Shown: positions 31,665 through 58,121 of the stretch, piece after piece
Layout of the letters: each line of letters begins with the position of its first letter
Numbering within the stretch: position 1 is the stretch's first letter
Assembly (NCBI GenBank): GCA_963855995.1
Contig: OY979724.1
Coordinates: 14,135,032 to 14,199,031, forward strand
Length of the DNA: 64,000 nt
Origin: Muricea muricata
Taxonomy: Eukaryota > Cnidaria > Anthozoa > Malacalcyonacea > Plexauridae
Direction: 5' to 3'
Notes under the pieces: model-generated
The model's database searches: none
What the model was told of the DNA's origin: nothing
The model's input: the letters and a program-made list of their open reading frames with translations, nothing else
Translations under genes and position numbers: made by a program

Positions 31665-32072
31665 ATTTGTAACATTTCAGCGACAATGTTAACCTTTTTT
31701 GTCTTCCGATCGCGTATATTTGCTCTTAAAGTCTTAAACTTAAATTTGACAACAACGTCCAATTCTGTCCCGGCGCCAAATGTCCAAAGCCATCTTTTAT
31801 AACAATACTTGGTCCATTTCACCATCGTTATCCTCTCTTATTTTACTATCCTAAGGCTAATCCCCTGGCAGAATTCCTGACTCCTTTTGAAACCCGCTAA
31901 TGTAAATTGATTACGCTAGCATGTAATCTTATATGGTACTTCTCAAAAACCCTAATAGAAGTGGTATAACGTATTTTACCCAATATTTTATTATGGCATT
32001 TTTTGTAAAAAATTGTCGACAACGCAGCTGAACGATAATTCTCTTGCTCTGAATTATTTTCGTTTTGGCTAT
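31665..32072. repeat. Degenerate solo arm at the left edge of the array
   Basis: It starts CATTTCAGCGACAATGTTAA, as does the right-edge copy at 57613. From about 31750 it is a diverged right arm of the array palindrome, ending TTTTGGCTATG at about 32067. It joins the next left arm with no NudE linker between, producing a tight hairpin (CGACAACGCAGCTGAACG mirrored within about 100 bp). Confidence 0.75.
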
Positions 32073-33488
32073 GGGCCAGAGCAAGAGAATTATCGTTCAG
32101 CTGCGTTGTCGAATGTGGTTTAAATTATTTACCCGTTTTTAATTGAACGAGGTACAAATTTTTACAAAAATTGTCATAATAAAGTATTGGAAAAAAAATG
32201 CTATACCACTTAGTTAGGGTTTTCGAGAAGTACCATGCGAGATTACATGCTAGCGTAATCAATTTACGTTAGCAGATTTCAAAAGGAGTGAGGAATTCTG
32301 CTACCTTTGAAGGATTAGCCTTAGGATGGTAAAAAAGAGAGAAAACGATGGTGAAATGGGCAGAGTATTGTAATAAAAGATGGCTTTGGACATTTGGCGC
32401 CTTGAGAGGATTGGACGTTGTTGTCGCCAACATTAACGGCCAATTGACTGCCTTCGCCTAATATCCACCATCTCTGGCTCGAATTCGAGCTATTAGGGGA
32501 GGGTAGAAGCGGCCCCCAGACCATAAGTGCTAAAACCCTGGAATTCTAGATTCGAATCCGACCATTGACAGTATAGAATCACCGTTCGTATTGATATACG
32601 TTAGGCTCCGCTGTTGCAAGGATTGTGGTTGCATTAACAGCAATCACGCGCATGCGCAGACGTTTTTCCGTGGTGTTAATGCAACCACAATCCTTGCAAC
32701 AGCGGAGCCTAACGTATATCAATACGAACGGTGATTCTATACTGTCGATGGTCGGATTCGAATCTAGAATTCCAGGGTTTTTAGCACTTATGGTCTGGGG
32801 GCCGCTTCTACCCTCCCCTAATAGTTCGAATTCGAGCCAGAGGTGGTGAACAGGCAATTGGCAGTCAATTGGATGTTAATGTTGGCGAAAACAACGTCCA
32901 ATTCTGTCCAAAGCCACCTTTCATAACAATACTTGGTCCATTTCAAATGTCCAAAGCCATCTTTTATGAAAATACTTAGTCCGTTTCGCCATCGTTACGC
33001 TCTCTTTTTTACCATCCTAAGGCTAATCCTTCGAAGCAGAATTCCTGACTCTGCTAATGTAAATTGATTACGCTAGCATGTAATCTCATATGGTACTTCT
33101 CAAAAATCCTAATATAAGTGGTATAACGTATTTTTTTCCAATATTTTATTATGGCATTTTTTGTAAAAATTTGTACCTCATTCAATTAAAAACGGGTAAA
33201 TAATTTAAACCACATTCGACAACGCAGCTGAACGATAATTCTCTGGCTCTGAATTATTTTCGTTTTGGCTATGTTTAAGAATTAATATTAGGCTAGAGAA
33301 AACCCCGCTAAGACAATTTAAACTTAGTGGCAATCACTTGAAATCACTTGAAACTTTGCAAAAGATCACTAGAACACATTGAACAACGACTGATATAGGT
33401 ATTTGCTACATGGTTTAAATTTATTTGTATGTTTCCTGTGGAGTTGATCGTGAATTTGAACTTTGACAGGTGTTTATCATTTTTTCAG

Positions 33489-33557
33489 GCAATTGAAAGA
33501 AAGACAATACTGGAAAATGAACTAGATGAAAGCGAGACGTTAGTTACTTCCCAATAG
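33489..33557 (+). pseudogene. Truncated NudE exon copy (first of 16 in the array)
   Basis: After an intact acceptor (TTTTTTCAG) the frame reads AIERKTILENELDESETLV and stops at TAG where the next palindrome starts. It matches the coiled-coil exon of NDE1/NDEL1 (AIERNAFLESELDEKE in human). Other copies start at 34986, 36483, 37904, 39348, 40769, 42243, 43664, 45138, 46612, 48086, 49560, 51034, 52508, 53982 and 55479. About 200 bp of upstream NudE intron travels with each copy. None has a donor site, so none could be spliced onward normally. Confidence 0.85.
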
Positions 33558-34768
33558 CCAAAACGAAAATAATTCAGAGCAAGAGAATTATCGTTCAGCT
33601 GCGTTGTCGAATGTGGTTTAAATTATTTACCCGTTTTTAATCGAACGAGGTACAAATTTTTACAAAAATTGTCATAATAAAGTATTGGAAAAAAAATGCT
33701 ATACCACTTAGTTAGGGTTTTCGAGAAGTACCATGCGAGATTACATGCTAGCGTAATCAATTTACGTTAGCAGATTTCAAAAGGAGTGAGGAATTCTGCT
33801 ACCTTTGAAGGATTAGCCTTAGGATGGTAAAAAAGAGAGAAAACGATGGTGAAATGGGCAGAGTATTGTAATAAAAGATGGCTTTGGACATTTGGCGCCT
33901 TGAGGGAATTGGACGTTGTTGTCGCCAACATTAACGGCCAATTGACTGCCTTCGCCTAATATCCACCATCTCTGGCTCGAATTCGAACTATTAGGGGAGG
34001 GTAGAAGCGGCCCCCAGACCATGAGTGCTAAAACCCTGGAATTCTAGATTCGAATCCGACCATCGACAGTATAGAATCACCGTTCGTATTGATATACGTT
34101 AGGCTCCGCTGTTGCAAGGATTGTGGTTGCATTAACAGCAATCACGCGCATGCGCAGACGTTTTTCCGTGGTGTTAATGCAACCACAATCCTTGCAACAG
34201 CGGAGCCTAACGTATATCAATACGAACGGTGATTCTATACTGTCGATGGTCGGATTCGAATCTAGAATTCCAGGGTTTTAGCACTCATGGTCTGGGGGCC
34301 GCTTCTACCCTCCCCTAATAGTTCGAATTCGAGCCAGAGGTGGTGAACAGGCAATTGGCAGTCAATTGGATGTTAATGTTGGCGAAAACAACGTCCAATT
34401 CTGTCCAAAGCCACCTTTTATAACAATACTTGGTCCATTTCAAATGTCCAAAGCCATCTTTTATGAAAATACTTAGTCCGTTTCGCCATCGTTACGCTCT
34501 CTTTTTTACCATCCTAAGGCTAATCTTTCGAAGCAGAATTCCTGACTCTGCTAATGTAAATTGATTACGCTAGCATGTAATCTCATATGGTACTTCTCAA
34601 AAATCCTAATATAAGTGGTATAACGTATTTTTTTCCAATATTTTATTATGGCATTTTTTGTAAAAATTTGTACCTCATTCAATTAAAAACGGGTAAATAA
34701 TTTAAACCACATTCGACAACGCAGCTGAACGATAATTCTCTGGCTCTGAATTATTTTCGTTTTGGCTA
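33555..34768. repeat. Representative array palindrome (unit 2)
   Basis: Left arm 33555-34137, spacer 34138-34171, right arm 34172-34768. Arms begin AGCCAAAACGAAAATAATTC and its complement. The inner 200 bp of the arms are almost perfectly complementary; the outer parts carry scattered mismatches and small indels. A transcript through one unit would fold into a hairpin of about 580 bp. No transposase, no clear target duplication and no conserved reading frame are seen. Confidence 0.92.
34146..34155. promoter_or_regulatory. GCGCATGCGC motif at palindrome centre
   Basis: The 34-bp spacer of every full unit contains GCGCATGCGC followed by AGACG. This matches the palindromic NRF1 binding consensus, a common CpG promoter element. 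Right flank 57755-57770 has the same motif (CATGCGCATGCGCAGACG). Promoter function is inferred only. Confidence 0.35.
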
Positions 34769-37148
34769 TGTTTAAGAATTAATATTAGGCTAGAGAAAAC
34801 CCCGCTAAGACAATTTAAACTTAGTGGCAATCACTTGAAATCACTTGAAACTTTGCAAAAGATCACTAGAACACATTGAACAACGACTGATATAGGTATT
34901 TGCTACATGGTTTAAATTTATTTGTATGTTTCCTGTGGAGTTGATCGTGAATTTGAACTTTGACAGGTGTTTATCATTTTTTCAGGCAATTGAAAGAAAG
35001 ACAATACTGGAAAATGAACTAGATGAAAGCGAGACGTTAGTTACTTCCCAATAGCCAAAACGAAAATAATTCAGAGCAAGAGAATTATCGTTCAGCTGCG
35101 TTGTCGAATGTGGTTTAAATTATTTACCCGTTTTTAATTGAACGAGGTACAAATTTTTACAAAAATTGTCATAATAAAGTATTGGAAAAAAAATGCTATA
35201 CCACTTAGTTAGGGTTTTCGAGAAGTACCATGCGAGATTACATGCTAGCGTAATCAATTTACGTTAGCAGATTTCAAAAGGAGTGAGGAATTCTGCTACC
35301 TTTGAAGGATTAGCCTTAGGATGGTAAAAAAGAGAGAAAACGATGGTGAAATGGGCAGAGTATTGTAATAAAAGATGGCTTTGGACATTTGGCGCCTTGA
35401 GAGAATTGGACGTTGTTGTCGCCAACATTAACGGCCAATTGACTGCCTTCGCCTAATATCCACCATCTCTGGCTCGAATTCGAACTATTAGGGGAGGGTA
35501 GAAGCGGCCCCCAGACCATAAGTGCTAAAACCCTGGGATTCTAGATTCGAATCCGACCATCGACAGTATAGAATCACCGTTCGTATTGATATACGTTAGG
35601 CTCCGCTGTTGCAAGGATTGTGGTTGCATTAACAGCAATCACGCGCATGCGCAGACGTTTTTCCGTGGTGTTAATGCAACCACAATCCTTGCAACAGCGG
35701 AGCCTAACGTATATCAATACGAACGGTGATTCTATACTGTCGATGGTCGGATTCGAATCTAGAATTCCAGGGTTTTAGCACTCATGGTCTGGGGGCCGCT
35801 TCTACCCTCCCCTAATAGTTCGAATTCGAGCCAGAGGTGGTGAACAGGCAATTGGCAGTCAATTGGATGTTAATGTTGGCGAAAACAACGTCCAATTCTG
35901 TCCAAAGCCACCTTTTATAACAATACTTGGTCCATTTCAAATGTCCAAAGCCATCTTTTATGAAAATACTTAGTCCGTTTCGCCATCGTTACGCTCTCTT
36001 TTTTACCATCCTAAGGCTAATCTTTCGAAGCAGAATTCCTGACTCTGCTAATGTAAATTGATTACGCTAGCATGTAATCTCATATGGTACTTCTCAAAAA
36101 TCCTAATATAAGTGGTATAACGTATTTTTTTCCAATATTTTATTATGGCATTTTTTGTAAAAATTTGTACCTCATTCAATTAAAAACGGGTAAATAATTT
36201 AAACCACATTCGACAACGCAGCTGAACGATAATTCTCTGGCTCTGAATTATTTTCGTTTTGGCTATGTTTAAGAATTAATATTAGGCTAGAGAAAACCCC
36301 GCTAAGACAATTTAAACTTAGTGGCAATCACTTGAAATCACTTGAAACTTTGCAAAAGATCACTAGAACACATCGAACAACGACTGAATTAGGTATTTGC
36401 TACATGGTTTAAATTTATTTGTATGTTTCCTGTGGAGTTGATCGTGAATTTGAACTTTGACAGGTGTTTATCATTTTTTCAGGCAATTGAAAGAAAGACA
36501 ATACTGGAAAATGAACTAGATGAAAGCGAGACGTTAGTTACTTCCCAATAGCGAAAACGAAAATAATTCAGAGCAAGAGAATTATCGTTCAGCTGCGTTG
36601 TCGAATGTGGTTTAAATTATTTACCCGTTTTTAATTGAACGAGGTACAAATTTTTACAAAAATTGTCATAATAAAGTATCGGAAAAAAAATGCTATACCA
36701 CTTAGTTAGGGTTTTCGAGAAGTACCATGCGAGATTACATGCTAGCGTAATCAATTTACGTTAGCAGATTTCAAAAGGAGTGAGGAATTCTGCTACCTTT
36801 GAAGGATTAGCCTTAGGATGGTAAAAAAGAGAGAAAACGATGGTGAAATGGGCAGAGTATTGTAATAAAAGATGGCTTTGGACATTTGGCGCCTTGAGAG
36901 AATTGGACGTTGTTGTCGCCAACATTAACGGCCAATTGACTGCCTTCGCCTAATATCCACCATCTCTGGCTCGAATTCGAACTATTAGGGGAGGGTAGAA
37001 GCGGCCCCCAGACCATGAGTGCTAAAACCCTGGAATTCTAGATTCGAATCCGACCATCGACAGTATAGAATCACCGCTCGTATTGATATACGTTAGGCTC
37101 CGCTGTTGCAAGGATTGTGGTTGCATTAACAGCAATCACGCGCATGCG

Positions 37149-37250
37149 TATATTTGCTCTTAAACTTGCCAAAAGATACACATAACCCGGGTAAAATATT
37201 CGCAAAATCGCCATTTTTAAGATGACAACATATGCTCTCCCCTATATACC
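37149..37250. repeat. Replaced centre in the four short units
   Basis: In the units whose left arms start at 36549, 37970, 39414 and 42309, the spacer and the inner part of the right arm are replaced by about 100 bp beginning TATATTTGCTCTTAAACTTG (37149, 38570, 40014, 42909). The same sequence occurs in the right flank at about 57655-57742 and its start in the left flank near 31714. These units are therefore only partly palindromic. Confidence 0.88.
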
Positions 37251-40200
37251 CTCCCCTAATAGTTCGAATTCGAGCCAGAGGTGGTGAACAGGCAATTGGC
37301 AGTCAATTGGATGTGAATGTTGGCGAAAACAACGTCCAATTCTGTCCAAAGCCACCTTTTATAACAATACTTGGTCCGTTATGAAAATACTTAGTCCGTT
37401 TCGCCATCGTTACGCTCTCTTTTTTACCATCCTAAGGCTAATCCTTCGAAGCAGAATTCCTGACTCTGCTAATGTAAATTGATTACGCTAGCATGTAATC
37501 TCATATGGTACTTCTCAAAAATCCTAATATAAGTGGTATAACGTATTTTTTTCCAATATTTTATTATGGCATTTTTTGTAAAAATTTGTACCTCATTCAA
37601 TTAAAAACGGGTAAATAATTTAAACCACATTCGACAACGCAGCTGAACGATAATTCTCTGGCTCTGAATTATTTTCGTTTTGGCTATGTTTAAGAATTAA
37701 TATTAGGCTAGAGAAAACCCCGCTAAGACAATTTAAACTTAGTGGCAATCACTTGAAATCACTTGAAACTTTGCAAAAGATCACTAGAACACATTGAACA
37801 ACGACTGATATAGGTATTTGCTACATGGTTTAAATTTATTTGTATGTTTCCTGTGGAGTTGATCGTGAATTTGAACTTTGACAGGTATTTATCATTTTTT
37901 CAGGCAATTGAAAGAAAGACAATACTGGAAAATGAACTAGATGAAAGCGAGACGTTAGTTACTTCCCAATAGCGAAAACGAAAATAATTCAGAGCAAGAG
38001 AATTATCGTTCAGCTGCGTTGTCGAATGTGGTTTAAATTATTTACCCGTTTTTAATTGAACGAGGTACAAATTTTTACAAAAATTGTCATAATAAAGTAT
38101 CGGAAAAAAAATGCTATACCACTTAGTTAGGGTTTTCGAGAAGTACCATGCGAGATTACATGCTAGCGTAATCAATTTACGTTAGCAGATTTCAAAAGGA
38201 GTGAGGAATTCTGCTACCTTTGAAGGATTAGCCTTAGGATGGTAAAAAAGAGAGAAAACGATGGTGAAATGGGCAGAGTATTGTAATAAAAGATGGCTTT
38301 GGACATTTGGCGCCTTGAGAGAATTGGACGTTGTTGTCGCCAACATTAACGGCCAATTGACTGCCTTCGCCTAATATCCACCATCTCTGGCTCGAATTCG
38401 AACTATTAGGGGAGGGTAGAAGCGGCCCCCAGACCATGAGTGCTAAAACCCTGGAATTCTAGATTCGAATCCGACCATCGACAGTATAGAATCACCGCTC
38501 GTATTGATATACGTTAGGCTCCGCTGTTGCAAGGATTGTGGTTGCATTAACAGCAATCACGCGCATGCGTATATTTGCTCTTAAACTTGCCAAAAGATAC
38601 ACATAACCCGGGTAAAATATTCGCAAAATCGCCATTTTTAAGATGACAACATATGCTCTCCCCTATATACCCTCCCCTAATAGTTCGAATTCGAGCCAGA
38701 GGTGGTGAACAGGCAATTGGCAGTCAATTGGATGTTAATGTTGGCGAAAACAACGTCCAATTCTGTCCAAAGCCACCTTTTATAACAATACTTGGTCCAT
38801 TTCAAATGTCCAAAGCCATCTTTTATGAAAATACTTAGTCCGTTTCGCCATCGTTACGCTCTCTTTTTTACCATCCTAAGGCTAATCTTTCGAAGCAGAA
38901 TTCCTGACTCTGCTAATGTAAATTGATTACGCTAGCATGTAATCTCATATGGTACTTCTCAAAAATCCTAATATAAGTGGTATAACGTATTTTTTTCCAA
39001 TATTTTATTATGGCATTTTTTGTAAAAATTTGTACCTCATTCAATTAAAAACGGGTAAATAATTTAAACCACATTCGACAACGCAGCTGAACGATAATTC
39101 TCTGGCTCTGAATTATTTTCGTTTTGGCTATGTTTAAGAATTAATATTAGGCTAGAGAAAACCCCGCTAAGACAATTTAAACTTAGTGGCAATCACTTGA
39201 AATCACTTGAAACTTTGCAAAAGATCACTAGAACACATCGAACAACGACTGAATTAGGTATTTGCTACATGGTTTAAATTTATTTGTATGTTTCCTGTGG
39301 AGTTGATCGTGAATTTGAACTTTGACAGGTGTTTATCATTTTTTCAGGCAATTGAAAGAAAGACAATACTGGAAAATGAACTAGATGAAAGCGAGACGTT
39401 AGTTACTTCCCAATAGCGAAAACGAAAATAATTCAGAGCAAGAGAATTATCGTTCAGCTGCGTTGTCGAATGTGGTTTAAATTATTTACCCGTTTTTAAT
39501 TGAACGAGGTACAAATTTTTACAAAAATTGTCATAATAAAGTATCGGAAAAAAAATGCTATACCACTTAGTTAGGGTTTTCGAGAAGTACCATGCGAGAT
39601 TACATGCTAGCGTAATCAATTTACGTTAGCAGATTTCAAAAGGAGTGAGGAATTCTGCTACCTTTGAAGGATTAGCCTTAGGATGGTAAAAAAGAGAGAA
39701 AACGATGGTGAAATGGGCAGAGTATTGTAATAAAAGATGGCTTTGGACATTTGGCGCCTTGAGAGAATTGGACGTTGTTGTCGCCAACATTAACGGCCAA
39801 TTGACTGCCTTCGCCTAATATCCACCATCTCTGGCTCGAATTCGAACTATTAGGGGAGGGTAGAAGCGGCCCCCAGACCATGAGTGCTAAAACCCTGGAA
39901 TTCTAGATTCGAATCCGACCATCGACAGTGTAGAATCACCGCTCGTATTGATATACGTTAGGCTCCGCTGTTGCAAGGATTGTGGTTGCATTAACAGCAA
40001 TCACGCGCATGCGTATATTTGCTCTTAAACTTGCCAAAAGATACACATAACCCGGGTAAAATATTCGCAAAATCGCCATTTTTAAGATGACAACATATGC
40101 TCTCCCCTATATACCCTCCCCTAATAGTTCGAATTCGAGCCAGAGGTGGTGAACAGGCAATTGGCAGTCAATTGGATGTGAATGTTGGCGAAAACAACGT

Positions 40201-43200
40201 CCAATTCTGTCCAAAGCCACCTTTTATAACAATACTTGGTCCGTTATGAAAATACTTAGTCCGTTTCGCCATCGTTACGCTCTCTTTTTTACCATCCTAA
40301 GGCTAATCCTTCGAAGCAGAATTCCTGACTCTGCTAATGTAAATTGATTACGCTAGCATGTAATCTCATATGGTACTTCTCAAAAATCCTAATATAAGTG
40401 GTATAACGTATTTTTTTCCAATATTTTATTATGGCATTTTTTGTAAAAATTTGTACCTCATTCAATTAAAAACGGGTAAATAATTTAAACCACATTCGAC
40501 AACGCAGCTGAACGATAATTCTCTGGCTCTGAATTATTTTCGTTTTGGCTATGTTTAAGAATTAATATTAGGCTAGAGAAAACCCCGCTAAGACAATTTA
40601 AACTTAGTGGCAATCACTTGAAATCACTTGAAACTTTGCAAAAGATCACTAGAACACATTGAACAACGACTGATATAGGTATTTGCTACATGGTTTAAAT
40701 TTATTTGTATGTTTCCTGTGGAGTTGATCGTGAATTTGAACTTTGACAGGTATTTATCATTTTTTCAGGCAATTGAAAGAAAGACAATACTGGAAAATGA
40801 ACTAGATGAAAGCGAGACGTTAGTTACTTCCCAATAGCGAAAACGAAAATAATTCAGAGCAAGAGAATTATCGTTCAGCTGCGTTGTCGAATGTGGTTTA
40901 AATTATTTACCCGTTTTTAATTGAACGAGGTACAAATTTTTACAAAAATTGTCATAATAAAGTATCGGAAAAAAAATGCTATACCACTTAGTTAGGGTTT
41001 TCGAGAAGTACCATGCGAGATTACATGCTAGCGTAATCAATTTACGTTAGCAGATTTCAAAAGGAGTGAGGAATTCTGCTACCTTTGAAGGATTAGCCTT
41101 AGGATGGTAAAAAAGAGAGAAAACGATGGTGAAATGGGCAGAGTATTGTAATAAAAGATGGCTTTGGACATTTGGCGCCTTGAGAGAATTGGACGTTGTT
41201 GTCGCCAACATTAACGGCCAATTGACTGCCTTCGCCTAATATCCACCATCTCTGGCTCGAATTCGAACTATTAGGGGAGGGTAGAAGCGGCCCCCAGACC
41301 ATAAGTGCTAAAACCCTGGAATTCTAGATTCGAATCCGACCATCGACAGTATAGAATCACCGTTCGTATTGATATACGTTAGGCTCCGCTGTTTCAAGGA
41401 TTGTGGTTGCATTAACAGCAATCACGCGCATGCGCAGACGTTTTTCCGTGGTGTTAATGCAACCACAATCCTTGCAACAGCGGAGCCTAACGTATATCAA
41501 TACGAACGGTGATTCTATACTGTCGATGGTCGGATTCGAATCTAGAATTCCAGGGTTTTAGCACTCATGGTCTGGGGGCCGCTTCTACCCTCCCCTAATA
41601 GTTCGAATTCGAGCCAGAGGTGGTCAACAGGCAATTGGCAGTCAATTGGATGTTAATGTTGGCGAAAACAACGTCCAATTCTGTCCAAAGCCACCTTTTA
41701 TAACAATACTTGGTCCGTTATGAAAATACTTAGTCCGTTTCGCCATCGTTACGCTCTCTTTTTTACCATCCTAAGGCTAATCCTTCGAAGCAGAATTCCT
41801 GACTCTGCTAATGTAAATTGATTACGCTAGCATGTAATCTCATATGGTACTTCTCAAAAATCCTAATATAAGTGGTATAACGTATTTTTTTCCAATATTT
41901 TATTATGGCATTTTTTGTAAAAATTTGTACCTCATTCAATTAAAAACGGGTAAATAATTTAAACCACATTCGACAACGCAGCTGAACGATAATTCTCTGG
42001 CTCTGAATTATTTTCGTTTTGGCTATGTTTAAGAATTAATATTAGGCTAGAGAAAACCCCGCTAAGACAATTTAAACTTAGTGGCAATCACTTGAAATCA
42101 CTTGAAACTTTGCAAAAGATCACTAGAACACATTGAACAACGACTGATATAGGTATTTGCTACATGGTTTAAATTTATTTGTATGTTTCCTGTGGAGTTG
42201 ATCGTGAATTTGAACTTTGACAGGTGTTTATCATTTTTTCAGGCAATTGAAAGAAAGACAATACTGGAAAATGAACTAGATGAAAGCGAGACGTTAGTTA
42301 CTTCCCAATAGCGAAAACGAAAATAATTCAGAGCAAGAGAATTATCGTTCAGCTGCGTTGTCGAATGTGGTTTAAATTATTTACCCGTTTTTAATTGAAC
42401 GAGGTACAAATTTTTACAAAAATTGTCATAATAAAGTATCGGAAAAAAAATGCTATACCACTTAGTTAGGGTTTTCGAGAAGTACCATGCGAGATTACAT
42501 GCTAGCGTAATCAATTTACGTTAGCAGATTTCAAAAGGAGTGAGGAATTCTGCTACCTTTGAAGGATTAGCCTTAGGATGGTAAAAAAGAGAGAAAACGA
42601 TGGTGAAATGGGCAGAGTATTGTAATAAAAGATGGCTTTGGACATTTGGCGCCTTGAGAGAATTGGACGTTGTTGTCGCCAACATTAACGGCCAATTGAT
42701 TGCCTTCGCCTAATATCCACCATCTCTGGCTCGAATTCGAACTATTAGGGGAGGGTAGAAGCGGCCCCCAGACCATAAGTGCTAAAACCCTGGAATTCTA
42801 GATTCGAATCCGACCATCGACAGTATAGAATCACCGCTCGTATTGATATACGTTAGGCTCCGCTGTTGCAAGGATTGTGGTTGCATTAACAGCAATCACG
42901 CGCATGCGTATATTTGCTCTTAAACTTGCCAAAAGATACACATTACCCGGGTAAAATATTCGCAAAATCGCCATTTTTAAGATGACAACATATGCTCTCC
43001 CCTATATACCCTCCCCTAATAGTTCGAATTCGAGCCAGAGGTGGTGAACAGGCAATTGGCAGTCAATTGGATGTGAATGTTGGCGAAAACAACGTCCAAT
43101 TCTGTCCAAAGCCACCTTTTATAACAATACTTGGTCCGTTATGAAAATACTTAGTCCGTTTCGCCATCGTTACGCTCTCTTTTTTACCATCCTAAGGCTA

Positions 43201-46200
43201 ATCCTTCGAAGCAGAATTCCTGACTCTGCTAATGTAAATTGATTACGCTAGCATGTAATCTCATATGGTACTTCTCAAAAATCCTAATATAAGTGGTATA
43301 ACGTATTTTTTTCCAATATTTTATTATGGCATTTTTTGTAAAAATTTGTACCTCATTCAATTAAAAACGGGTAAATAATTTAAACCACATTCGACAACGC
43401 AGCTGAACGATAATTCTCTGGCTCTGAATTATTTTCGTTTTGGCTATGTTTAAGAATTAATATTAGGCTAGAGAAAACCCCGCTAAGACAATTTAAACTT
43501 AGTGGCAATCACTTGAAATCACTTGAAACTTTGCAAAAGATCACTAGAACACATTGAACAACGACTGATATAGGTATTTGCTACATGGTTTAAATTTATT
43601 TGTATGTTTCCTGTGGAGTTGATCGTGAATTTGAACTTTGACAGGTGTTTATCATTTTTTCAGGCAATTGAAAGAAAGACAATACTGGAAAATGAACTAG
43701 ATGAAAGCGAGACGTTAGTTACTTCCCAATAGCCAAAACGAAAATAATTCAGAGCAAGAGAATTATCGTTCAGCTGCGTTGTCGAATGTGGTTTAAATTA
43801 TTTACCCGTTTTTAATTGAACGAGGTACAAATTTTTACAAAAATTGTCATAATAAAGTATCGGAAAAAAAATGCTATACCACTTAGTTAGGGTTTTCGAG
43901 AAGTACCATGCGAGATTACATGCTAGCGTAATCAATTTACGTTAGCAGATTTCAAAAGGAGTGAGGAATTCTGCTACCTTTGAAGGATTAGCCTTAGGAT
44001 GGTAAAAAAGAGAGAAAACGATGGTGAAATGGGCAGAGTATTGTAATAAAAGATGGCTTTGGACATTTGGCGCCTTGAGAGAATTGGACGTTGTTGTCGC
44101 CAACATTAACGGCCAATTGACTGCCTTCGCCTAATATCCACCATCTCTGGCTCGAATTCGAACTATTAGGGGAGGGTAGAAGCGGCCCCCAGACCATAAG
44201 TGCTAAAACCCTGGAATTCTAGATTCGAATCCGACCATCGACAGTATAGAATCACCGTTCGTATTGATATACGTTAGGCTCCGCTGTTGCAAGGATTGTG
44301 GTTGCATTAACAGCAATCACGCGCATGCGCAGACGTTTTTCCGTGGTGTTAATGCAACCACAATCCTTGCAACAGCGGAGCCTAACGTATATCAATACGA
44401 ACGGTGATTCTATACTGTCGATGGTCGGATTCGAATCTAGAATTCCAGGGTTTTAGCACTCATGGTCTGGGGGCCGCTTCTACCCTCCCCTAATAGCTCG
44501 AATTCGAGCCAGAGGTGGTGAACAGGCAATTGGCAGTCAATTGGATGTTAATGTTGGCGAAAACAACGTCCAATTCTGTCCAAAGCCACCTTTTATAACA
44601 ATACTTGGTCCGTTATGAAAATACTTAGTCCGTTTCGCCATCGTTACGCTCTCTTTTTTACCATCCTAAGGCTAATCCTTCGAAGCAGAATTCCTGACTC
44701 TGCTAATGTAAATTGATTACGCTAGCATGTAATCTCATATGGTACTTCTCAAAAATCCTAATATAAGTGGTATAACGTATTTTTTTCCAATATTTTATTA
44801 TGGCATTTTTTGTAAAAATTTGTACCTCATTCAATTAAAAACGGGTAAATAATTTAAACCACATTCGACAACGCAGCTGAACGATAATTCTCTGGCTCTG
44901 AATTATTTTCGTTTTGGCTATGTTTAAGAATTAATATTAGGCTAGAGAAAACCCCGCTAAGACAATTTAAACTTAGTGGCAATCACTTGAAATCACTTGA
45001 AACTTTGCAAAAGATCACTAGAACACATCGAACAACGACTGAATTAGGTATTTGCTACATGGTTTAAATTTATTTGTATGTTTCCTGTGGAGTTGATCGT
45101 GAATTTGAACTTTGACAGGTGTTTATCATTTTTTCAGGCAATTGAAAGAAAGACAATACTGGAAAATGAACTAGATGAAAGCGAGACGTTAGTTACTTCC
45201 CAATAGCCAAAACGAAAATAATTCAGAGCAAGAGAATTATCGTTCAGCTGCGTTGTCGAATGTGGTTTAAATTATTTACCCGTTTTTAATCGAACGAGGT
45301 ACAAATTTTTACAAAAATTGTCATAATAAAGTATTGGAAAAAAAATGCTATACCACTTAGTTAGGGTTTTCGAGAAGTACCATGCGAGATTACATGCTAG
45401 CGTAATCAATTTACGTTAGCAGATTTCAAAAGGAGTGAGGAATTCTGCTACCTTTGAAGGATTAGCCTTAGGATGGTAAAAAAGAGAGAAAACGATGGTG
45501 AAATGGGCAGAGTATTGTAATAAAAGATGGCTTTGGACATTTGGCGCCTTGAGAGAATTGGACGTTGTTGTCGCCAACATTAACGGCCAATTGACTGCCT
45601 TCGCCTAATATCCACCATCTCTGGCTCGAATTCGAACTATTAGGGGAGGGTAGAAGCGGCCCCCAGACCATAAGTGCTAAAACCCTGGAATTCTAGATTC
45701 GAATCCGACCATCGACAGTATAGAATCACCGTTCGTATTGATATACGTTAGGCTCCGCTGTTGCAAGGATTGTGGTTGCATTAACAGCAATCACGCGCAT
45801 GCGCAGACGTTTTTCCGTGGTGTTAATGCAACCACAATCCTTGCAACAGCGGAGCCTAACGTATATCAATACGAACGGTGATTCTATACTGTCGATGGTC
45901 GGATTCGAATCTAGAATTCCAGGGTTTTAGCACTCATGGTCTGGGGGCCGCTTCTACCCTCCCCTAATAGTTCGAATTCGAGCCAGAGGTGGTGAACAGG
46001 CAATTGGCAGTCAATTGGATGTTAATGTTGGCGAAAACAACGTCCAATTCTGTCCAAAGCCACCTTTTATAACAATACTTGGTCCGTTATGAAAATACTT
46101 AGTCCGTTTCGCCATCGTTACGCTCTCTTTTTTACCATCCTAAGGCTAATCCTTCGAAGCAGAATTCCTGACTCTGCTAATGTAAATTGATTACGCTAGC

Positions 46201-49200
46201 ATGTAATCTCATATGGTACTTCTCAAAAATCCTAATATAAGTGGTATAACGTATTTTTTTCCAATATTTTATTATGGCATTTTTTGTAAAAATTTGTACC
46301 TCATTCAATTAAAAACGGGTAAATAATTTAAACCACATTCGACAACGCAGCTGAACGATAATTCTCTGGCTCTGAATTATTTTCGTTTTGGCTATGTTTA
46401 AGAATTAATATTAGGCTAGAGAAAACCCCGCTAAGACAATTTAAACTTAGTGGCAATCACTTGAAATCACTTGAAACTTTGCAAAAGATCACTAGAACAC
46501 ATTGAACAACGACTGATATAGGTATTTGCTACATGGTTTAAATTTATTTGTATGTTTCCTGTGGAGTTGATCGTGAATTTGAACTTTGACAGGTGTTTAT
46601 CATTTTTTCAGGCAATTGAAAGAAAGACAATACTGGAAAATGAACTAGATGAAAGCGAGACGTTAGTTACTTCCCAATAGCGAAAACGAAAATAATTCAG
46701 AGCAAGAGAATTATCGTTCAGCTGCGTTGTCGAATGTGGTTTAAATTATTTACCCGTTTTTAATTGAACGAGGTACAAATTTTTACAAAAATTGTCATAA
46801 TAAAGTATCGGAAAAAAAATGCTATACCACTTAGTTAGGGTTTTCGAGAAGTACCATGCGAGATTACATGCTAGCGTAATCAATTTACGTTAGCAGATTT
46901 CAAAAGGAGTGAGGAATTCTGCTACCTTTGAAGGATTAGCCTTAGGATGGTAAAAAAGAGAGAAAACGATGGTGAAATGGGCAGAGTATTGTAATAAAAG
47001 ATGGCTTTGGACATTTGGCGCCTTGAGAGAATTGGACGTTGTTGTCGCCAACATTAACGGCCAATTGACTGCCTTCGCCTAATATCCACCATCTCTGGCT
47101 CGAATTCGAACTATTAGGGGAGGGTAGAAGCGGCCCCCAGACCATAAGTGCTAAAACCCTGGAATTCTAGATTCGAATCCGACCATCGACAGTATAGAAT
47201 CACCGTTCGTATTGATATACGTTAGGCTCCGCTGTTGCAAGGATTGTGGTTGCATTAACAGCAATCACGCGCATGCGCAGACGTTTTTCCGTGGTGTTAA
47301 TGCAACCACAATCCTTGCAACAGCGGAGCCTAACGTATATCAATACGAACGGTGATTCTATACTGTCGATGGTCGGATTCGAATCTAGAATTCCAGGGTT
47401 TTAGCACTCATGGTCTGGGGGCCGCTTCTACCCTCCCCTAATAGTCCGAATTCGAGCCAGAGGTGGTGAACAGGCAATTGGCAGTCAATTGGATGTTAAT
47501 GTTGGCGAAAACAACGTCCAATTCTGTCCAAAGCCACCTTTTATAACAATACTTGGTCCGTTATGAAAATACTTAGTCCGTTTCGCCATCGTTACGCTCT
47601 CTTTTTTACCATCCTAAGGCTAATCCTTCGAAGCAGAATTCCTGACTCTGCTAATGTAAATTGATTACGCTAGCATGTAATCTCATATGGTACTTCTCAA
47701 AAATCCTAATATAAGTGGTATAACGTATTTTTTTCCAATATTTTATTATGGCATTTTTTGTAAAAATTTGTACCTCATTCAATTAAAAACGGGTAAATAA
47801 TTTAAACCACATTCGACAACGCAGCTGAACGATAATTCTCTGGCTCTGAATTATTTTCGTTTTGGCTATGTTTAAGAATTAATATTAGGCTAGAGAAAAC
47901 CCCGCTAAGACAATTTAAACTTAGTGGCAATCACTTGAAATCACTTGAAACTTTGCAAAAGATCACTAGAACACATCGAACAACGACTGAATTAGGTATT
48001 TGCTACATGGTTTAAATTTATTTGTATGTTTCCTGTGGAGTTGATCGTGAATTTGAACTTTGACAGGTGTTTATCATTTTTTCAGGCAATTGAAAGAAAG
48101 ACAATACTGGAAAATGAACTAGATGAAAGCGAGACGTTAGTTACTTCCCAATAGCCAAAACGAAAATAATTCAGAGCAAGAGAATTATCGTTCAGCTGCG
48201 TTGTCGAATGTGGTTTAAATTATTTACCCGTTTTTAATCGAACGAGGTACAAATTTTTACAAAAATTGTCATAATAAAGTATTGGAAAAAAAATGCTATA
48301 CCACTTAGTTAGGGTTTTCGAGAAGTACCATGCGAGATTACATGCTAGCGTAATCAATTTACGTTAGCAGATTTCAAAAGGAGTGAGGAATTCTGCTACC
48401 TTTGAAGGATTAGCCTTAGGATGGTAAAAAAGAGAGAAAACGATGGTGAAATGGGCAGAGTATTGTAATAAAAGATGGCTTTGGACATTTGGCGCCTTGA
48501 GAGAATTGGACGTTGTTGTCGCCAACATTAACGGCCAATTGACTGCCTTCGCCTAATATCCACCATCTCTGGCTCGAATTCGAACTATTAGGGGAGGGTA
48601 GAAGCGGCCCCCAGACCATAAGTGCTAAAACCCTGGAATTCTAGATTCGAATCCGACCATCGACAGTATAGAATCACCGTTCGTATTGATATACGTTAGG
48701 CTCCGCTGTTGCAAGGATTGTGGTTGCATTAACAGCAATCACGCGCATGCGCAGACGTTTTTCCGTGGTGTTAATGCAACCACAATCCTTGCAACAGCGG
48801 AGCCTAACGTATATCAATACGAACGGTGATTCTATACTGTCGATGGTCGGATTCGAATCTAGAATTCCAGGGTTTTAGCACTCATGGTCTGGGGGCCGCT
48901 TCTACCCTCCCCTAATAGTTCGAATTCGAGCCAGAGGTGGTGAACAGGCAATTGGCAGTCAATTGGATGTTAATGTTGGCGAAAACAACGTCCAATTCTG
49001 TCCAAAGCCACCTTTTATAACAATACTTGGTCCGTTATGAAAATACTTAGTCCGTTTCGCCATCGTTACGCTCTCTTTTTTACCATCCTAAGGCTAATCC
49101 TTCGAAGCAGAATTCCTGACTCTGCTAATGTAAATTGATTACGCTAGCATGTAATCTCATATGGTACTTCTCAAAAATCCTAATATAAGTGGTATAACGT

Positions 49201-52200
49201 ATTTTTTTCCAATATTTTATTATGGCATTTTTTGTAAAAATTTGTACCTCATTCAATTAAAAACGGGTAAATAATTTAAACCACATTCGACAACGCAGCT
49301 GAACGATAATTCTCTGGCTCTGAATTATTTTCGTTTTGGCTATGTTTAAGAATTAATATTAGGCTAGAGAAAACCCCGCTAAGACAATTTAAACTTAGTG
49401 GCAATCACTTGAAATCACTTGAAACTTTGCAAAAGATCACTAGAACACATTGAACAACGACTGATATAGGTATTTGCTACATGGTTTAAATTTATTTGTA
49501 TGTTTCCTGTGGAGTTGATCGTGAATTTGAACTTTGACAGGTGTTTATCATTTTTTCAGGCAATTGAAAGAAAGACAATACTGGAAAATGAACTAGATGA
49601 AAGCGAGACGTTAGTTACTTCCCAATAGCGAAAACGAAAATAATTCAGAGCAAGAGAATTATCGTTCAGCTGCGTTGTCGAATGTGGTTTAAATTATTTA
49701 CCCGTTTTTAATTGAACGAGGTACAAATTTTTACAAAAATTGTCATAATAAAGTATCGGAAAAAAAATGCTATACCACTTAGTTAGGGTTTTCGAGAAGT
49801 ACCATGCGAGATTACATGCTAGCGTAATCAATTTACGTTAGCAGATTTCAAAAGGAGTGAGGAATTCTGCTACCTTTGAAGGATTAGCCTTAGGATGGTA
49901 AAAAAGAGAGAAAACGATGGTGAAATGGGCAGAGTATTGTAATAAAAGATGGCTTTGGACATTTGGCGCCTTGAGAGAATTGGACGTTGTTGTCGCCAAC
50001 ATTAACGGCCAATTGACTGCCTTCGCCTAATATCCACCATCTCTGGCTCGAATTCGAACTATTAGGGGAGGGTAGAAGCGGCCCCCAGACCATAAGTGCT
50101 AAAACCCTGGAATTCTAGATTCGAATCCGACCATCGACAGTATAGAATCACCGTTCGTATTGATATACGTTAGGCTCCGCTGTTGCAAGGATTGTGGTTG
50201 CATTAACAGCAATCACGCGCATGCGCAGACGTTTTTCCGTGGTGTTAATGCAACCACAATCCTTGCAACAGCGGAGCCTAACGTATATCAATACGAACGG
50301 TGATTCTATACTGTCGATGGTCGGATTCGAATCTAGAATTCCAGGGTTTTAGCACTCATGGTCTGGGGGCCGCTTCTACCCTCCCCTAATAGTCCGAATT
50401 CGAGCCAGAGGTGGTGAACAGGCAATTGGCAGTCAATTGGATGTTAATGTTGGCGAAAACAACGTCCAATTCTGTCCAAAGCCACCTTTTATAACAATAC
50501 TTGGTCCGTTATGAAAATACTTAGTCCGTTTCGCCATCGTTACGCTCTCTTTTTTACCATCCTAAGGCTAATCCTTCGAAGCAGAATTCCTGACTCTGCT
50601 AATGTAAATTGATTACGCTAGCATGTAATCTCATATGGTACTTCTCAAAAATCCTAATATAAGTGGTATAACGTATTTTTTTCCAATATTTTATTATGGC
50701 ATTTTTTGTAAAAATTTGTACCTCATTCAATTAAAAACGGGTAAATAATTTAAACCACATTCGACAACGCAGCTGAACGATAATTCTCTGGCTCTGAATT
50801 ATTTTCGTTTTGGCTATGTTTAAGAATTAATATTAGGCTAGAGAAAACCCCGCTAAGACAATTTAAACTTAGTGGCAATCACTTGAAATCACTTGAAACT
50901 TTGCAAAAGATCACTAGAACACATCGAACAACGACTGAATTAGGTATTTGCTACATGGTTTAAATTTATTTGTATGTTTCCTGTGGAGTTGATCGTGAAT
51001 TTGAACTTTGACAGGTGTTTATCATTTTTTCAGGCAATTGAAAGAAAGACAATACTGGAAAATGAACTAGATGAAAGCGAGACGTTAGTTACTTCCCAAT
51101 AGCCAAAACGAAAATAATTCAGAGCAAGAGAATTATCGTTCAGCTGCGTTGTCGAATGTGGTTTAAATTATTTACCCGTTTTTAATCGAACGAGGTACAA
51201 ATTTTTACAAAAATTGTCATAATAAAGTATTGGAAAAAAAATGCTATACCACTTAGTTAGGGTTTTCGAGAAGTACCATGCGAGATTACATGCTAGCGTA
51301 ATCAATTTACGTTAGCAGATTTCAAAAGGAGTGAGGAATTCTGCTACCTTTGAAGGATTAGCCTTAGGATGGTAAAAAAGAGAGAAAACGATGGTGAAAT
51401 GGGCAGAGTATTGTAATAAAAGATGGCTTTGGACATTTGGCGCCTTGAGAGAATTGGACGTTGTTGTCGCCAACATTAACGGCCAATTGACTGCCTTCGC
51501 CTAAAATCCACCATCTCTGGCTCGAATTCGAACTATTAGGGGAGGGTAGAAGCGGCCCCCAGACCATAAGTGCTAAGACCCTGGAATTCTAGATTCGAAT
51601 CCGACCATCGACAGTATAGAATCACCGTTCGTATTGATATACGTTAGGCTCCGCTGTTGCAAGGATTGTGGTTGCATTAACAGCAATCACGCGCATGCGC
51701 AGACGTTTTTCCGTGGTGTTAATGCAACCACAATCCTTGCAACAGCGGAGCCTAACGTATATCAATACGAACGGTGATTCTATACTGTCGATGGTCGGAT
51801 TCGAATCTAGAATTCCAGGGTTTTAGCACTCATGGTCTGGGGGCCGCTTCTACCCTCCCCTAATAGTCCGAATTCGAGCCAGAGGTGGTGAACAGGCAAT
51901 TGGCAGTCAATTGGATGTTAATGTTGGCGAAAACAACGTCCAATTCTGTCCAAAGCCACCTTTTATAACAATACTTGCTCCGTTATGAAAATACTTAGTC
52001 CGTTTCGCCATCGTTACGCTCTCTTTTTTACCATCCTAAGGCTAATCCTTCGAAGCAGAATTCCTGACTCTGCTAATGTAAATTGATTACGCTAGCATGT
52101 AATCTCATATGGTACTTCTCAAAAATCCTAATATAAGTGGTATAACGTATTTTTTTCCAATATTTTATTATGGCATTTTTTGTAAAAATTTGTACCTCAT

Positions 52201-55200
52201 TCAATTAAAAACGGGTAAATAATTTAAACCACATTCGACAACGCAGCTGAACGATAATTCTCTGGCTCTGAATTATTTTCGTTTTGGCTATGTTTAAGAA
52301 TTAATATTAGGCTAGAGAAAACCCCGCTAAGACAATTTAAACTTAGTGGCAATCACTTGAAATCACTTGAAACTTTGCAAAAGATCACTAGAACACATCG
52401 AACAACGACTGAATTAGGTATTTGCTACATGGTTTAAATTTATTTGTATGTTTCCTGTGGAGTTGATCGTGAATTTGAACTTTGACAGGTGTTTATCATT
52501 TTTTCAGGCAATTGAAAGAAAGACAATACTGGAAAATGAACTAGATGAAAGCGAGACGTTAGTTACTTCCCAATAGCCAAAACGAAAATAATTCAGAGCA
52601 AGAGAATTATCGTTCAGCTGCGTTGTCGAATGTGGTTTAAATTATTTACCCGTTTTTAATCGAACGAGGTACAAATTTTTACAAAAATTGTCATAATAAA
52701 GTATTGGAAAAAAAATGCTATACCACTTAGTTAGGGTTTTCGAGAAGTACCATGCGAGATTACATGCTAGCGTAATCAATTTACGTTAGCAGATTTCAAA
52801 AGGAGTGAGGAATTCTGCTACCTTTGAAGGATTAGCCTTAGGATGGTAAAAAAGAGAGAAAACGATGGTGAAATGGGCAGAGTATTGTAATAAAAGATGG
52901 CTTTGGACATTTGGCGCCTTGAGAGAATTGGACGTTGTTGTCGCCAACATTAACGGCCAATTGACTGCCTTCGCCTAATGTCCACCATCTCTGGCTCGAA
53001 TTCGAACTATTAGGGGAGGGTAGAAGCGGCCCCCAGACCATAAGTGCTAAAACCCTGGAATTCTAGATTCGAATCCGACCATCGACAGTATAGAATCACC
53101 GTTCGTATTGATATACGTTAGGCTCCGCTGTTGCAAGGATTGTGGTTGCATTAACAGCAATCACGCGCATGCGCAGACGTTTTTCCGTGGTGTTAATGCA
53201 ACCACAATCCTTGCAACAGCGGAGCCTAACGTATATCAATACGAACGGTGATTCTATACTGTCGATGGTCGGATTCGAATCTAGAATTCCAGGGTTTTAG
53301 CACTCATGGTCTGGGGGCCGCTTCTACCCTCCCCTAATAGTTCGAATTCGAGCCAGAGGTGGTGAACAGGCAATTGGCAGTCAATTGGATGTTAATGTTG
53401 GCGAAAACAACGTCCAATTCTGTCCAAAGCCACCTTTTATAACAATACTTGGTCCGTTATGAAAATACTTAGTCCGTTTCGGCATCGTTACGCTCTCTTT
53501 TTTACCATCCTAAGGCTAATCCTTCGAAGCAGAATTCCTGACTCTGCTAATGTAAATTGATTACGCTAGCATGTAATCTCATATGGTACTTCTCAAAAAT
53601 CCTAATATAAGTGGTATAACGTATTTTTTTCCAATATTTTATTATGGCATTTTTTGTAAAAATTTGTACCTCATTCAATTAAAAACGGGTAAATAATTTA
53701 AACCACATTCGACAACGCAGCTGAACGATAATTCTCTGGCTCTGAATTATTTTCGTTTTGGCTATGTTTAAGAATTAATATTAGGCTAGAGAAAACCCCG
53801 CTAAGACAATTTAAACTTAGTGGCAATCACTTGAAATCACTTGAAACTTTGCAAAAGATCACTAGAACACATCGAACAACGACTGAATTAGGTATTTGCT
53901 GCATGGTTTAAATTTATTTGTATGTTTCCTGTGGAGTTGATCGTGAATTTGAACTTTGACAGGTGTTTATCATTTTTTCAGGCAATTGAAAGAAAGACAA
54001 TACTGGAAAATGAACTAGATGAAAGCGAGACGTTAGTTACTTCCCAATAGCGAAAACGAAAATAATTCAGAGCAAGAGAATTATCGTTCAGCTGCGTTGT
54101 CGAATGTGGTTTAAATTATTTACCCGTTTTTAATTGAACGAGGTACAAATTTTTACAAAAATTGTCATAATAAAGTATTGGAAAAAAAATGCTATACCAC
54201 TTAGTTAGGGTTTTCGAGAAGTACCATGCGAGATTACATGCTAGCGTAATCAATTTACGTTAGCAGATTTCAAAAGGAGTGAGGAATTCTGCTACCTTTG
54301 AAGGATTAGCCTTAGGATGGTAAAAAAGAGAGAAAACGATGGTGAAATGGGCAGAGTATTGTAATAAAAGATGGCTTTGGACATTTGGCGCCTTGAGAGA
54401 ATTGGACGTTGTTGTCGCCAACATTAACGGCCAATTGACTGCCTTCGCCTAATATCCACCATCTCTGGCTCGAATTCGAACTATTAGGGGAGGGTAGAAG
54501 CGGCCCCCAGACCATAAGTGCTAAAACCCTGGGATTCTAGATTCGAATCCGACCATCGACAGTATAGAATCACCGTTCGTATTGATATACGTTAGGCTCC
54601 GCTGTTGCAAGGATTGTGGTTGCATTAACAGCAATCACGCGCATGCGCAGACGTTTTTCCGTGGTGTTAATGCAACCACAATCCTTGCAACAGCGGAGCC
54701 TAACGTATATCAATACGAACGGTGATTCTATACTGTCGATGGTCGGATTCGAATCTAGAATTCCAGGGTTTTAGCACTCATGGTCTGGGGGCCGCTTCTA
54801 CCCTCCCCTAATAGTTCGAATTCGAGCCAGAGGTGGTGAACAGGCAATTGGCAGTCAATTGGATGTTAATGTTGGCGAAAACAACGTCCAATTCTGTCCA
54901 AAGCCACCTTTTATAACAATACTTGGTCCATTTCAAATGTCCAAAGCCATCTTTTATGAAAATACTTAGTCCGTTTCGCCATCGTTACGCTCTCTTTTTT
55001 ACCATCCTAAGGCTAATCTTTCGAAGCAGAATTCCTGACTCTGCTAATGTAAATTGATTACGCTAGCATGTAATCTCATATGGTACTTCTCAAAAATCCT
55101 AATATAAGTGGTATAACGTATTTTTTTCCAATATTTTATTATGGCATTTTTTGTAAAAATTTGTACCTCATTCAATTAAAAACGGGTAAATAATTTAAAC

Positions 55201-57089
55201 CACATTCGACAACGCAGCTGAACGATAATTCTCTGGCTCTGAATTATTTTCGTTTTGGCTATGTTTAAGAATTAATATTAGGCTAGAGAAAACCCCGCTA
55301 AGACAATTTAAACTTAGTGGCAATCACTTGAAATCACTTGAAACTTTGCAAAAGATCACTAGAACACATCGAACAACGACTGAATTAGGTATTTGCTACA
55401 TGGTTTAAATTTATTTGTATGTTTCCTGTGGAGTTGATCGTGAATTTGAACTTTGACAGGTGTTTATCATTTTTTCAGGCAATTGAAAGAAAGACAATAC
55501 TGGAAAATGAACTAGATGAAAGCGAGACGTTAGTTACTTCCCAATAGCCAAAACGAAAATAATTCAGAGCAAGAGAATTATCGTTCAGCTGCGTTGTCGA
55601 ATGTGGTTTAAATTATTTACCCGTTTTTAATTGAACGAGGTACAAATTTTTACAAACTTTGTCACGATAAAGTATTGGAAAAAAAATGCTATACCACTTA
55701 GTTAGGGTTTTCGAGAAGTACCATGCGAGATTACATGCTAGCGTAATCAATTTACGTTAGCAGATTTCAAAAGGAGTGAGGAATTCTGCTACCTTTGAAG
55801 GATTAGCCTTAGGATGGTAAAAAAGAGAGAAAACGATGGTGAAATGGGCAGAGTATTGTAGTAAAAGATGGCTTTGGACATTTGGCGCCTTGAGAGAATT
55901 GGACGTTGTTGTCGCCAACATTAACGGCCAATTGACTGCCTTCGCCTAATATCCACCATCTCTGGCTCGAATTCGGACTATTAGGGGAGGGTGGAAGCGG
56001 CCCCCAGACCATAAGTGCTAAAACCCTGGAGTTCTAGATTCGAATCCGACCATCGACAGTATAGAATCACCGTTCGTATTGATATACGTTAGGCTCCGCT
56101 GTTGCAAGGATTGTGGTTGCATTAACAGCAATCACGCGCATGCGCAGACGTTTTTCCGTGGTGTTAATGCAACCACAATCCTTGCAACAGCGGAGCCTAA
56201 CGTATATCAATACGAACGGTGATTCTATATTGTCGATGGTCGGATTCGAACCTAGAATTCCAGGGTTTTAGCACTCATGGTCTGGGGGCCGCTTCTACCC
56301 TCCCCTAACAGTCCGAATTCGGGCCAGAGATGGCGGACATTAGGCGAAGGCAGTTAATTGAACGTTAATGTTGGCGAAAACAACGCCCAATTCTCCCGGC
56401 GCTTAATGCCCGAAGCCATCGTTATGCTCTCTTTTTTACCATCCTAAGGCTAATCCTTCGAAGGTAGCAGTAAATTCGTAAATTGGTTAATCTAGCATGT
56501 AATCTCATATGGTACTTCTCAAAAACCCTAATATAAGTGGTATAACGTATTTTTTTCCGATATTTTATTATGGCATTTTTTGTGAAAAATTGTACCTCAT
56601 TCAATTAAAAATGGGTAAATAATTTAAAACACATTCGACAACACAGCTGAACGATAATTCTCTTGCTCTGAATTATTTTCGTTTTGCGTATGTTTAAGAA
56701 TTAATTATAGGCTAGAGAAAACCCCGCTCACACAATTTAAACTTAGTGGCAATCACTTGAAATCACTTGAAACTTTGCAAAAACGAGGGAATATGTCTTC
56801 CTTTATGAAAAAACTCATTTCTAGCCAGTTAAACTCATTTTTGCAAGTTTTCAAAATTTCACCTATGGTCTCCTGATCCAATGGCTTATTTGGTAATTTG
56901 GTATTTGGGGGTGAAATATGGTAACTTGGCATAATGACTTGAAATCACTCGAAACTTTGCAAGAGATCACTAGAACACATTGAACAGCGACTGAATTAGG
57001 TATTTGCGACATGGTTTAAATTTATTTGTATGTTTCCTGTGGAGTTGATGGTGAATTTGAACTTTGACAGGTATTTATCACTTTTCCAG

Positions 57090-57460
57090 GGAATTGAAAG
57101 AAAGGCAATACTGCAAAATGAACTAGATGAAAAGGAGACGTTTGTTGAAACAGTCCAAAGACGGAACGATGAAGCAAGAAGTACATTGTATGAATTCTGA
57201 TATTCCTAAAGAAACAATGTTAAAGTACATTTTCTGTCGTCAGATCTGCATCAAGAACTTGCAGTAAGAATGCAGAAGAACTTAGAGCTTCAAAAAACAG
57301 CAGAAAAGACTGATATAGATGGAAAGAAAGACGAGAAAAGAAAATCTCATATTAAAGAAGACGTTAAGACTGATTCGATTGGAACATCACTTCACAAAGT
57401 TCAGAATGGCAGTACTAGAATGGCAGTAAATATAGTTGGTGATCGTTTACGGAAGTTGGG
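57090..57460 (+). pseudogene. NudE (NDE1/NDEL1) two-exon fragment
   Basis: NudE proteins bind LIS1 and dynein. Exon A (57090-57180) follows CTTTTCCAG and reads GIERKAILQNELDEKETFVE then TVQRRNDEAR; a 63-bp intron follows; exon B (57244-57460) reads NLHQELAVRMQKNLELQ, a Lys-rich linker, then MAVNIVGDRLRKLG before donor GTATGT. This spans the end of the coiled coil and the INIVGDLLRK-like motif of the family. Both exons are open and in phase. No exons for the N-terminal coiled coil exist between the NPRL3 promoter and the array, nor C-terminal exons further right. It is most likely a broken gene or partial duplicate. If earlier exons lie outside the window it could still be real, but nested genes on the other strand make this unlikely. 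Confidence 0.75.
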
Positions 57461-58120: not shown

Positions 58121-58121
58121 A

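Follow-up and report, generated by a model that had tools for sequence, protein, structure and literature searches.

A tandem array of long palindromes joined to a NudE gene piece, a probable chromosome-end satellite of the octocoral Muricea muricata

Structure of the array

The stretch of DNA analysed here, referred to as the window, comprises 64 kb of the genome of the octocoral Muricea muricata, positions 14135032–14199031 of contig C9 (OY979724.1; 14,285,854 bp, or 14.29 Mb, in total), and contains no N. The assembly (GCA_963855995.1; 453,007,491 bp in 74 contigs) was searched genome-wide. The right edge of the window is located 87 kb from the end of C9, and the array described below lies 94–119 kb from the same end. 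The contigs are uneven in size, C1 exceeding 123 Mb and C16 measuring 11.6 Mb. Contig C74 carries COX1 together with a MutS-domain gene, whose open frame spans 525 aa; mtMutS is known only from octocorals, and its presence argues against a scleractinian (Acropora) origin. COX1 runs there in the opposite direction to frames identified by eye as COX2, ATP8, and ATP6, an orientation that fits the octocoral mitochondrial gene order.

As assembled, the window contains 17 palindromes, 16 of which belong to units of 1.42–1.50 kb that also carry a NudE-bearing linker (B-type units). The last B-type unit is followed by one longer, A-type unit and then by a 127-bp satellite, the two together occupying 56692–60369. 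The features, in window positions and with the strand where one applies, are the following:

31417..32072, left flank, a degenerate stretch belonging to the same repeat family, in three pieces
31417–31585, minus strand, left flank: pieces of the pre-NudE segment of the A unit
31663–31730, left flank: piece from the downstream intron of the A unit
31748–32072, left flank: one decayed arm
32073..33272, palindrome 1, without a preceding NudE linker
33273..56691, plus strand, sixteen B-type units (linker plus palindrome), 1421–1497 bp each
33362..33544, plus strand, segment of a representative unit that comes from NudE, made up of the exon X end, a mini-intron retaining GT and AG, and 56 bp from the start of exon A
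33545..33553, plus strand, filler at the NudE/inverted-arm breakpoint
33554..34137, minus strand, inverted (left) arm of the representative palindrome
34138..34172, palindrome centre, 35 nt, containing GCGCATGCGC
34173..34769, plus strand, direct (right) arm of the representative palindrome
55263..56691, plus strand, array edge unit, which clusters with the units of C16 left and C8 internal and not with its own array
56692..57753, plus strand, NudE-bearing segment of the A-type unit, of which 56964–57568 matches the gene
57090..57179, plus strand, copy of NudE exon A, with 77 of 90 aligned bases as in the gene
57243..57461, plus strand, copy of NudE exon B, with 198 of 217 aligned bases as in the gene and deletions relative to it
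57754..58122, plus strand, single, non-palindromic arm half of the A-type unit, after the NudE segment
58123..60369, satellite of about 127 bp, directly adjacent to the A-type unit; longer periods of ~371 and ~253 bp also occur

In the representative palindrome (33554–34769), the 35-nt centre is flanked by arms of 584 and 597 bp, which are 93.4% identical over 608 ungapped columns in 17 aligned blocks. Searches of the window with anchors, allowing up to three mismatches, found the left-arm end 17 times, the right-arm end 18 times, and the NudE piece 17 times. An earlier reading of the sequence alone had described seventeen palindromes in units of 1.42–1.50 kb, and the anchors, the unit periods, and the arm alignment all bear this out. 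Its further description, an inverted repeat of about 1.2 kb with a NudE linker from unit 2 on, holds for 16 units, the 17th NudE piece (56692 onward) being the longer segment of the A-type unit. The same reading had assigned about 280 bp of each unit to NudE, which proved too much: the linker of the first unit measures 282 bp, of which 183 bp match NudE, namely ~36 bp of one exon, the mini-intron, and 56 bp of the exon that follows it. For the initial 89 bp of the linker, no alignment was obtained to the NudE gene over the 1.5 kb of it that was read. The splice acceptor and the 50-odd initial exon bases noted earlier are indeed present, as the AG is kept in all 17 window copies and exon A extends for 56 bp.

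The window units fall into a main type (n = 11, 99.1–100% alike), a variant type (n = 4, 99.4–99.9%), and a single edge unit, with pairwise identities across the whole array ranging from 90.6 to 100%. The four variant units, out of 16, are about 95% like the remaining ones, so homogenisation is incomplete. Units 10 and 12 are 100% identical, as are units 11 and 13, a hint of duplication at the scale of a dimer. The longest frame of the array has 98 codons from stop to stop, or 67 from ATG. No tRNA was found by ARAGORN in the window or in seven further loci.

The NudE piece and its likely parent gene

The identification of the gene piece as NudE is confirmed by the right-edge (A-type) copy, whose joined exons A and B match NDEL1 (PDB 2v71, E = 4.1e-8) and the Pfam family PF04880 (E = 4.4e-10, 40.8 bits, cut-off 30.9). 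A full NudE elsewhere in the genome had been named as something to look for, and a NudE gene with open exons is located on the minus strand at C9:355300–356800, the 1.5 kb read for comparison; it is the best of 22 PF04880 matches (E = 1.2e-12), the second-best candidate (C4:267 kb, E = 2e-8) containing four stops. The gene is found near the contig end, 84 kb from one of the arrays. It is likely the parent of the NudE piece in the repeat, a likelihood and not a proof since it was the only PF04880 candidate covered by the parent comparison.

The right-edge copy matches the gene over 605 bp (56964–57568) and retains the first two introns in addition to the greater part of intron 3, from which it follows that the copying took place at the DNA level. 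The exons are identical to the gene at 307 of 343 positions and the introns at 221 of 247, 89.5% in both cases with gaps uncounted, in a comparison that covered the window copies only. This equal divergence of exons and introns means that no coding constraint is visible on the right-edge copy. Most other exon-B copies in the genome carry stops. The mini-intron has retained its GT and AG in 17 of 17 window copies, which recent amplification may equally have produced. Two simpler origins can be dismissed. A processed pseudogene (retrocopy) is ruled out by the introns that the window's A-type copy contains. A local NudE gene split by the array is ruled out because the right NudE segment begins in the repeat and recurs at other sites, and also because a gene copy with open exons exists at C9:355 kb.

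The A-type unit and its neighbours

The A-type unit is composed, in this order, of the NudE segment with two exons, the downstream intron, and a single arm half, beyond which lies the 127-bp satellite. The arm is thus an ordinary component of this unit. The junction between arm half and 127-bp satellite is identical in 7 of 20 exon-B loci: the window, C8 internal, C8 left, C9 left, C15 right, C16 left, and C8 right. On C15, two exon-B copies are 1639 bp apart and the NudE segments, of which the second is truncated, start at a distance of 1661 bp from each other, within a larger period of 3599 bp. This period contains an arrangement in which an arm is flanked by NudE on the minus strand and NudE on the plus strand (locus L051, 1048–1329 minus and 2074–2905 plus). 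At the left contig end of C16, an arm-only tandem repeat is found, with no NudE in 3 kb and 84.7–86.3% identity to the arm half of the window, which suggests that the arm repeat preceded the uptake of NudE.

Genome-wide distribution

The 25-mer spanning the breakpoint between NudE and the inverted arm is present at 156 sites in the genome (71 forward and 85 reverse, with at most two mismatches), and its reversed control at none, which excludes chance. The 100 places listed out of these 156, possibly sorted by mismatches, have zero mismatches. The B junctions among them are located at C6:241–278 kb (26), C9:224–272 kb (33), the window (16), C8:320–323 kb (3), C8:6.456–6.460 Mb (4), C8:14.318–14.342 Mb (11), and C9:14.261–14.270 Mb (7), where the array continues into the right contig end of C9. 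The junctions in the C6 and left C9 arrays are spaced by ~1.5 kb, a tandem head-to-tail disposition. B units are additionally found on C14 and C16, and related arrangements on C15. The junction between arm and linker, common to the A and B types, occurs at 195 sites (control 0), and the 100 listed of these include C2, C3, C12, C13, and C14. The sequence-only reading had seen the array as a local oddity. The oddity is real, but it belongs to a family that occurs across the genome and is clustered close to contig ends. Dispersal of the unit without its NudE linker, which that reading had named as speaking against it, is not seen in the listed places, where the breakpoint and the arm/linker junction recur. 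An arm-only repeat does, however, occur at C16 left.

A search with the exon-B fragment gave 45 matches, which were reduced to 37 places, the candidate parent gene included, after neighbours were merged and C11:13.31 Mb (E = 4.97) was left out as noise; for four of the 37, the length of the contig is unknown. The distance to a contig end is below 1 Mb in 31 of the 33 that can be placed. The fragment reads toward that end in 26 of these 31 (p = 2e-4), or in 16 of 21 when counted by clusters (p = 0.027), and away from it in the other 5. At the right end of C9, the second B array is opposite in direction to that of the window. Interstitial copies are found at C8:6.45–6.46 Mb, and single arm/linker junctions at C2:7.61 Mb and C2:12.64 Mb. 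Telomere repeats were present in one of five contig-end samples, that of C5 left, where they follow 2500 N, so that "subtelomeric" stands for "near the contig end" on most contigs. The C8 left sample consists entirely of N, and that of C9 left of a degenerate 9-bp repeat with no match to the palindrome/NudE family.

Comparison of units between places

The comparison, and the tree drawn from it without support values, comprised 45 distinct units from nine places, units identical within a place having been dropped; units were defined as linker-to-linker periods, a definition blind to solo palindromes. Average unit identity is 99.3% within C9 left and 99.8% within C8 right. Between places, the units of C6, C8 left, C8 right, C9 left, C9 right end, and C14 are 98.3–99.5% alike, and the window units are 94.1–99.5% identical to this group. 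The units of C16 left and C8 internal are 99.0% identical to each other and ~95–96% to the C6/C8/C9/C14 group. In the tree, the window's last B unit falls together with those of C16 left and C8 internal, and the remaining window units form the main group and the variant group of four. The C8 right units form one group, and those of C9 left are found on adjoining branches. Distinct edges and homogenised interiors are what unequal crossing-over is expected to produce. The two arms of a unit are 90–94% identical in the 45 units, against more than 99% between units of the same type; the inversion is thus older than the present amplification, and the arms have not been kept identical.

Origin and nature of the repeat

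The best explanation of these data, and in our judgement a probable one, is that the family is passive chromosome-end (subtelomeric) satellite DNA, spread by recombination. In the most likely order of events, an arm-type repeat would already have been present near chromosome ends when a genomic NudE piece of ~0.6 kb joined it, giving rise to an A-type unit of ~1.65 kb. This piece would have consisted of the end of one exon, an intron, exon A, an intron, exon B, and most of the next intron, and its source would be the likely parent gene near the contig end, beside such repeats. A single inversion-with-deletion may then have truncated the NudE piece after 56 bp of exon A, leaving an inverted arm joined, via the short filler, to the exon A stub and placed beside a direct arm, that is, the palindromic B unit. 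Unequal crossing-over would have amplified the B units and homogenised them locally, and exchange between chromosome ends would have carried the block of B array, A unit, and 127-bp satellite to several ends. Recombination is the most likely mechanism of this spread, and the repeat itself most likely has no function.

The palindromes could instead derive from a foldback DNA transposon, with long terminal inverted repeats, that inserted in or near a NudE copy, the composite being amplified later. The long inverted arms with their sharp ends (584/597 bp, 93.4%) would be expected of such an element, and interstitial copies do exist. However, the arm half forms an ordinary part of the A-type unit, leading from the NudE intron to the next NudE segment or to the 127-bp satellite, and a single breakpoint recurs 156 times in place of the many different insertion sites of a mobile element. 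We therefore regard a transposon origin as unlikely.

The sequence-only reading had proposed two outcomes, a source of long hairpin RNA or a structural satellite, and the second is the better supported. That the family functions as a source of long hairpin RNA and of endogenous siRNA or piRNA, with NudE as a possible target, appears very unlikely to us. The arms would suffice for a 580-bp stem, and Rfam returned 17 miRNA-precursor matches in 31700–36300, the best of them to MIR807 (E = 2.5e-11; 63.5 bits, where the gathering score is 113). All 17, however, fall below their gathering scores and are read as a generic signal of long hairpins. The window stems do not contain NudE, the piece being located in the linker, so that a folded transcript of the window array would yield no NudE dsRNA and any role would concern the arms only. 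Moreover, the NudE parts are only ~85–90% identical to the gene, and perfect pairing has apparently not been maintained in arms that have drifted to 90–94% while units of one type remain more than 99% alike. The C15 arrangement, in which NudE itself lies within an inverted repeat (3599-bp period), differs in this respect: were it transcribed, the inverted pair could give NudE dsRNA acting in trans on the NudE gene. We consider this a long shot; if true, a satellite would regulate the gene from which it derives, both residing in the same chromosome-end environment.

Least probable of all is a low-copy palindrome falsely expanded by the assembler, for although near-identical palindrome arrays are difficult for an assembler, the C9 contig stops within such an array, and units 10 and 12 as well as 11 and 13 coincide fully, there are several separate arrays with array-specific variants and a distinct edge unit, the same block junction is found at other sites, and the window has no N, though the assembled copy number is provisional.

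Read as a chromosome-end satellite, the family makes the history of a satellite's birth legible within one genome, through a likely parent, an intermediate unit, a breakpoint, a palindromic unit, and their spread. Its 1.2-kb palindromic monomer also offers a natural test case for the survival of long inverted repeats in replication.

Comparison with known systems

A literature search on cnidarian chromosome ends and satellites found no paper, and such material may be scarce; a search on this palindrome/NudE repeat likewise found nothing, a result of partial coverage that does not imply unpublished status. Subtelomeric satellites and duplicated blocks include the Y' elements of yeast, human D4Z4, and human subtelomeric duplications. 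The coral family resembles Y' and D4Z4 in its tandem near-end arrays, in the blocks common to different contig ends, in the mostly constant polarity, in array-wise homogenisation, and in the presence of gene pieces in the unit. Its monomer differs, being an imperfect palindrome of 1.2 kb with a short exon-intron-exon piece, and the likely parent of that piece sits near one contig end. Y' and DUX4 contain long open frames, whereas the longest frame of the coral array is the one of 98 codons.

With foldback or long-TIR transposons and MITEs, the family shares long inverted arms around a short centre, but it has spread as a composite with one common breakpoint, and its arm is single in the A-type unit. 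The capture of gene fragments by Pack-TIR elements and Helitrons is similar in that a piece of a host gene, copied at the DNA level with its introns, is multiplied as a repeat; the coral family differs in its tandem amplification and contig-end bias, and no capturing element was identified. Finally, hpRNA loci that produce endo-siRNA also have inverted arms of hundreds of base pairs, but in the window array the gene piece is located outside the stem.

Sequences flanking the palindrome array

The array of 17 palindromes ends on its right in an A-type unit (a longer NudE segment of two exons with a single arm half), which passes directly into a satellite with longer periods of 371 and 253 bp besides its basic one; the same junction is present at six other sites. 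The arms of the representative palindrome (33554-34769) and its equivalents contain GATTCGAATCC, a putative motif that we take to be near the tRNA B-box consensus. A search with ARAGORN found no tRNA in the 64-kb window.

Features on either side of the array (window positions)
2-1501 (-): SAP/RPEL protein (Pfam)
7659-8603 (-): Cullin_binding protein (Pfam)
9334-9822 (-): PP2C-like (Pfam)
18448-19623: inverted repeat, ~320 bp, 89% identity, arms ~545 bp apart
21426-21890 (-): F-box (Pfam)
24352-24881: two long AT dinucleotide runs, of 52.5 and 133 copies
58123-60369: satellite, ~127 bp period, adjoining the A-type NudE unit
61871-63190 (-): open frame, 440 codons, reverse transcriptase domain RVT_1 (E=1.1e-20)
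63136-63564: second open frame, possibly of the same element as the RVT_1 frame
63635-64000 (-): open frame, likeness to a Tc1/mariner-type transposase, by eye

The RVT_1 frame at the right end of the window probably represents a non-LTR retrotransposon, of which the second open frame may be a part. The last frame may be a transposase, judging by its appearance, and a Pfam search assigned it to no family. On the left, a gene-rich stretch (2-21890, minus strand), which also holds the inverted repeat, lies ~10 kb away from the array.

Related arrangements and contig ends

On contig C15 (locus L051, C15:12.263-12.265 Mb), the NudE piece flanks arm sequence as an inverted pair (L051 1048-1329 and 2074-2905), and this arrangement recurs with a 3599-bp period.

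The right end of the window's own contig (L053, C9:14281855-14285854) falls inside another palindrome array, oriented opposite to the one in the window, and the chromosome end is therefore incomplete in the assembly. Its left end (L057, C9:1-3000) opens with ~138 copies of a degenerate 9-bp repeat (consensus CTATAGGTA), which is neither telomere-like nor a member of the NudE-palindrome family. At the left end of contig C5 (L056, C5:1-3000), 84 copies of the CCCTAA telomere repeat immediately follow a 2500-base N run. Elsewhere in the nuclear genome, a copy of mitochondrial COX1 with one internal TAA was observed (L089, C1:38414782-38416095).
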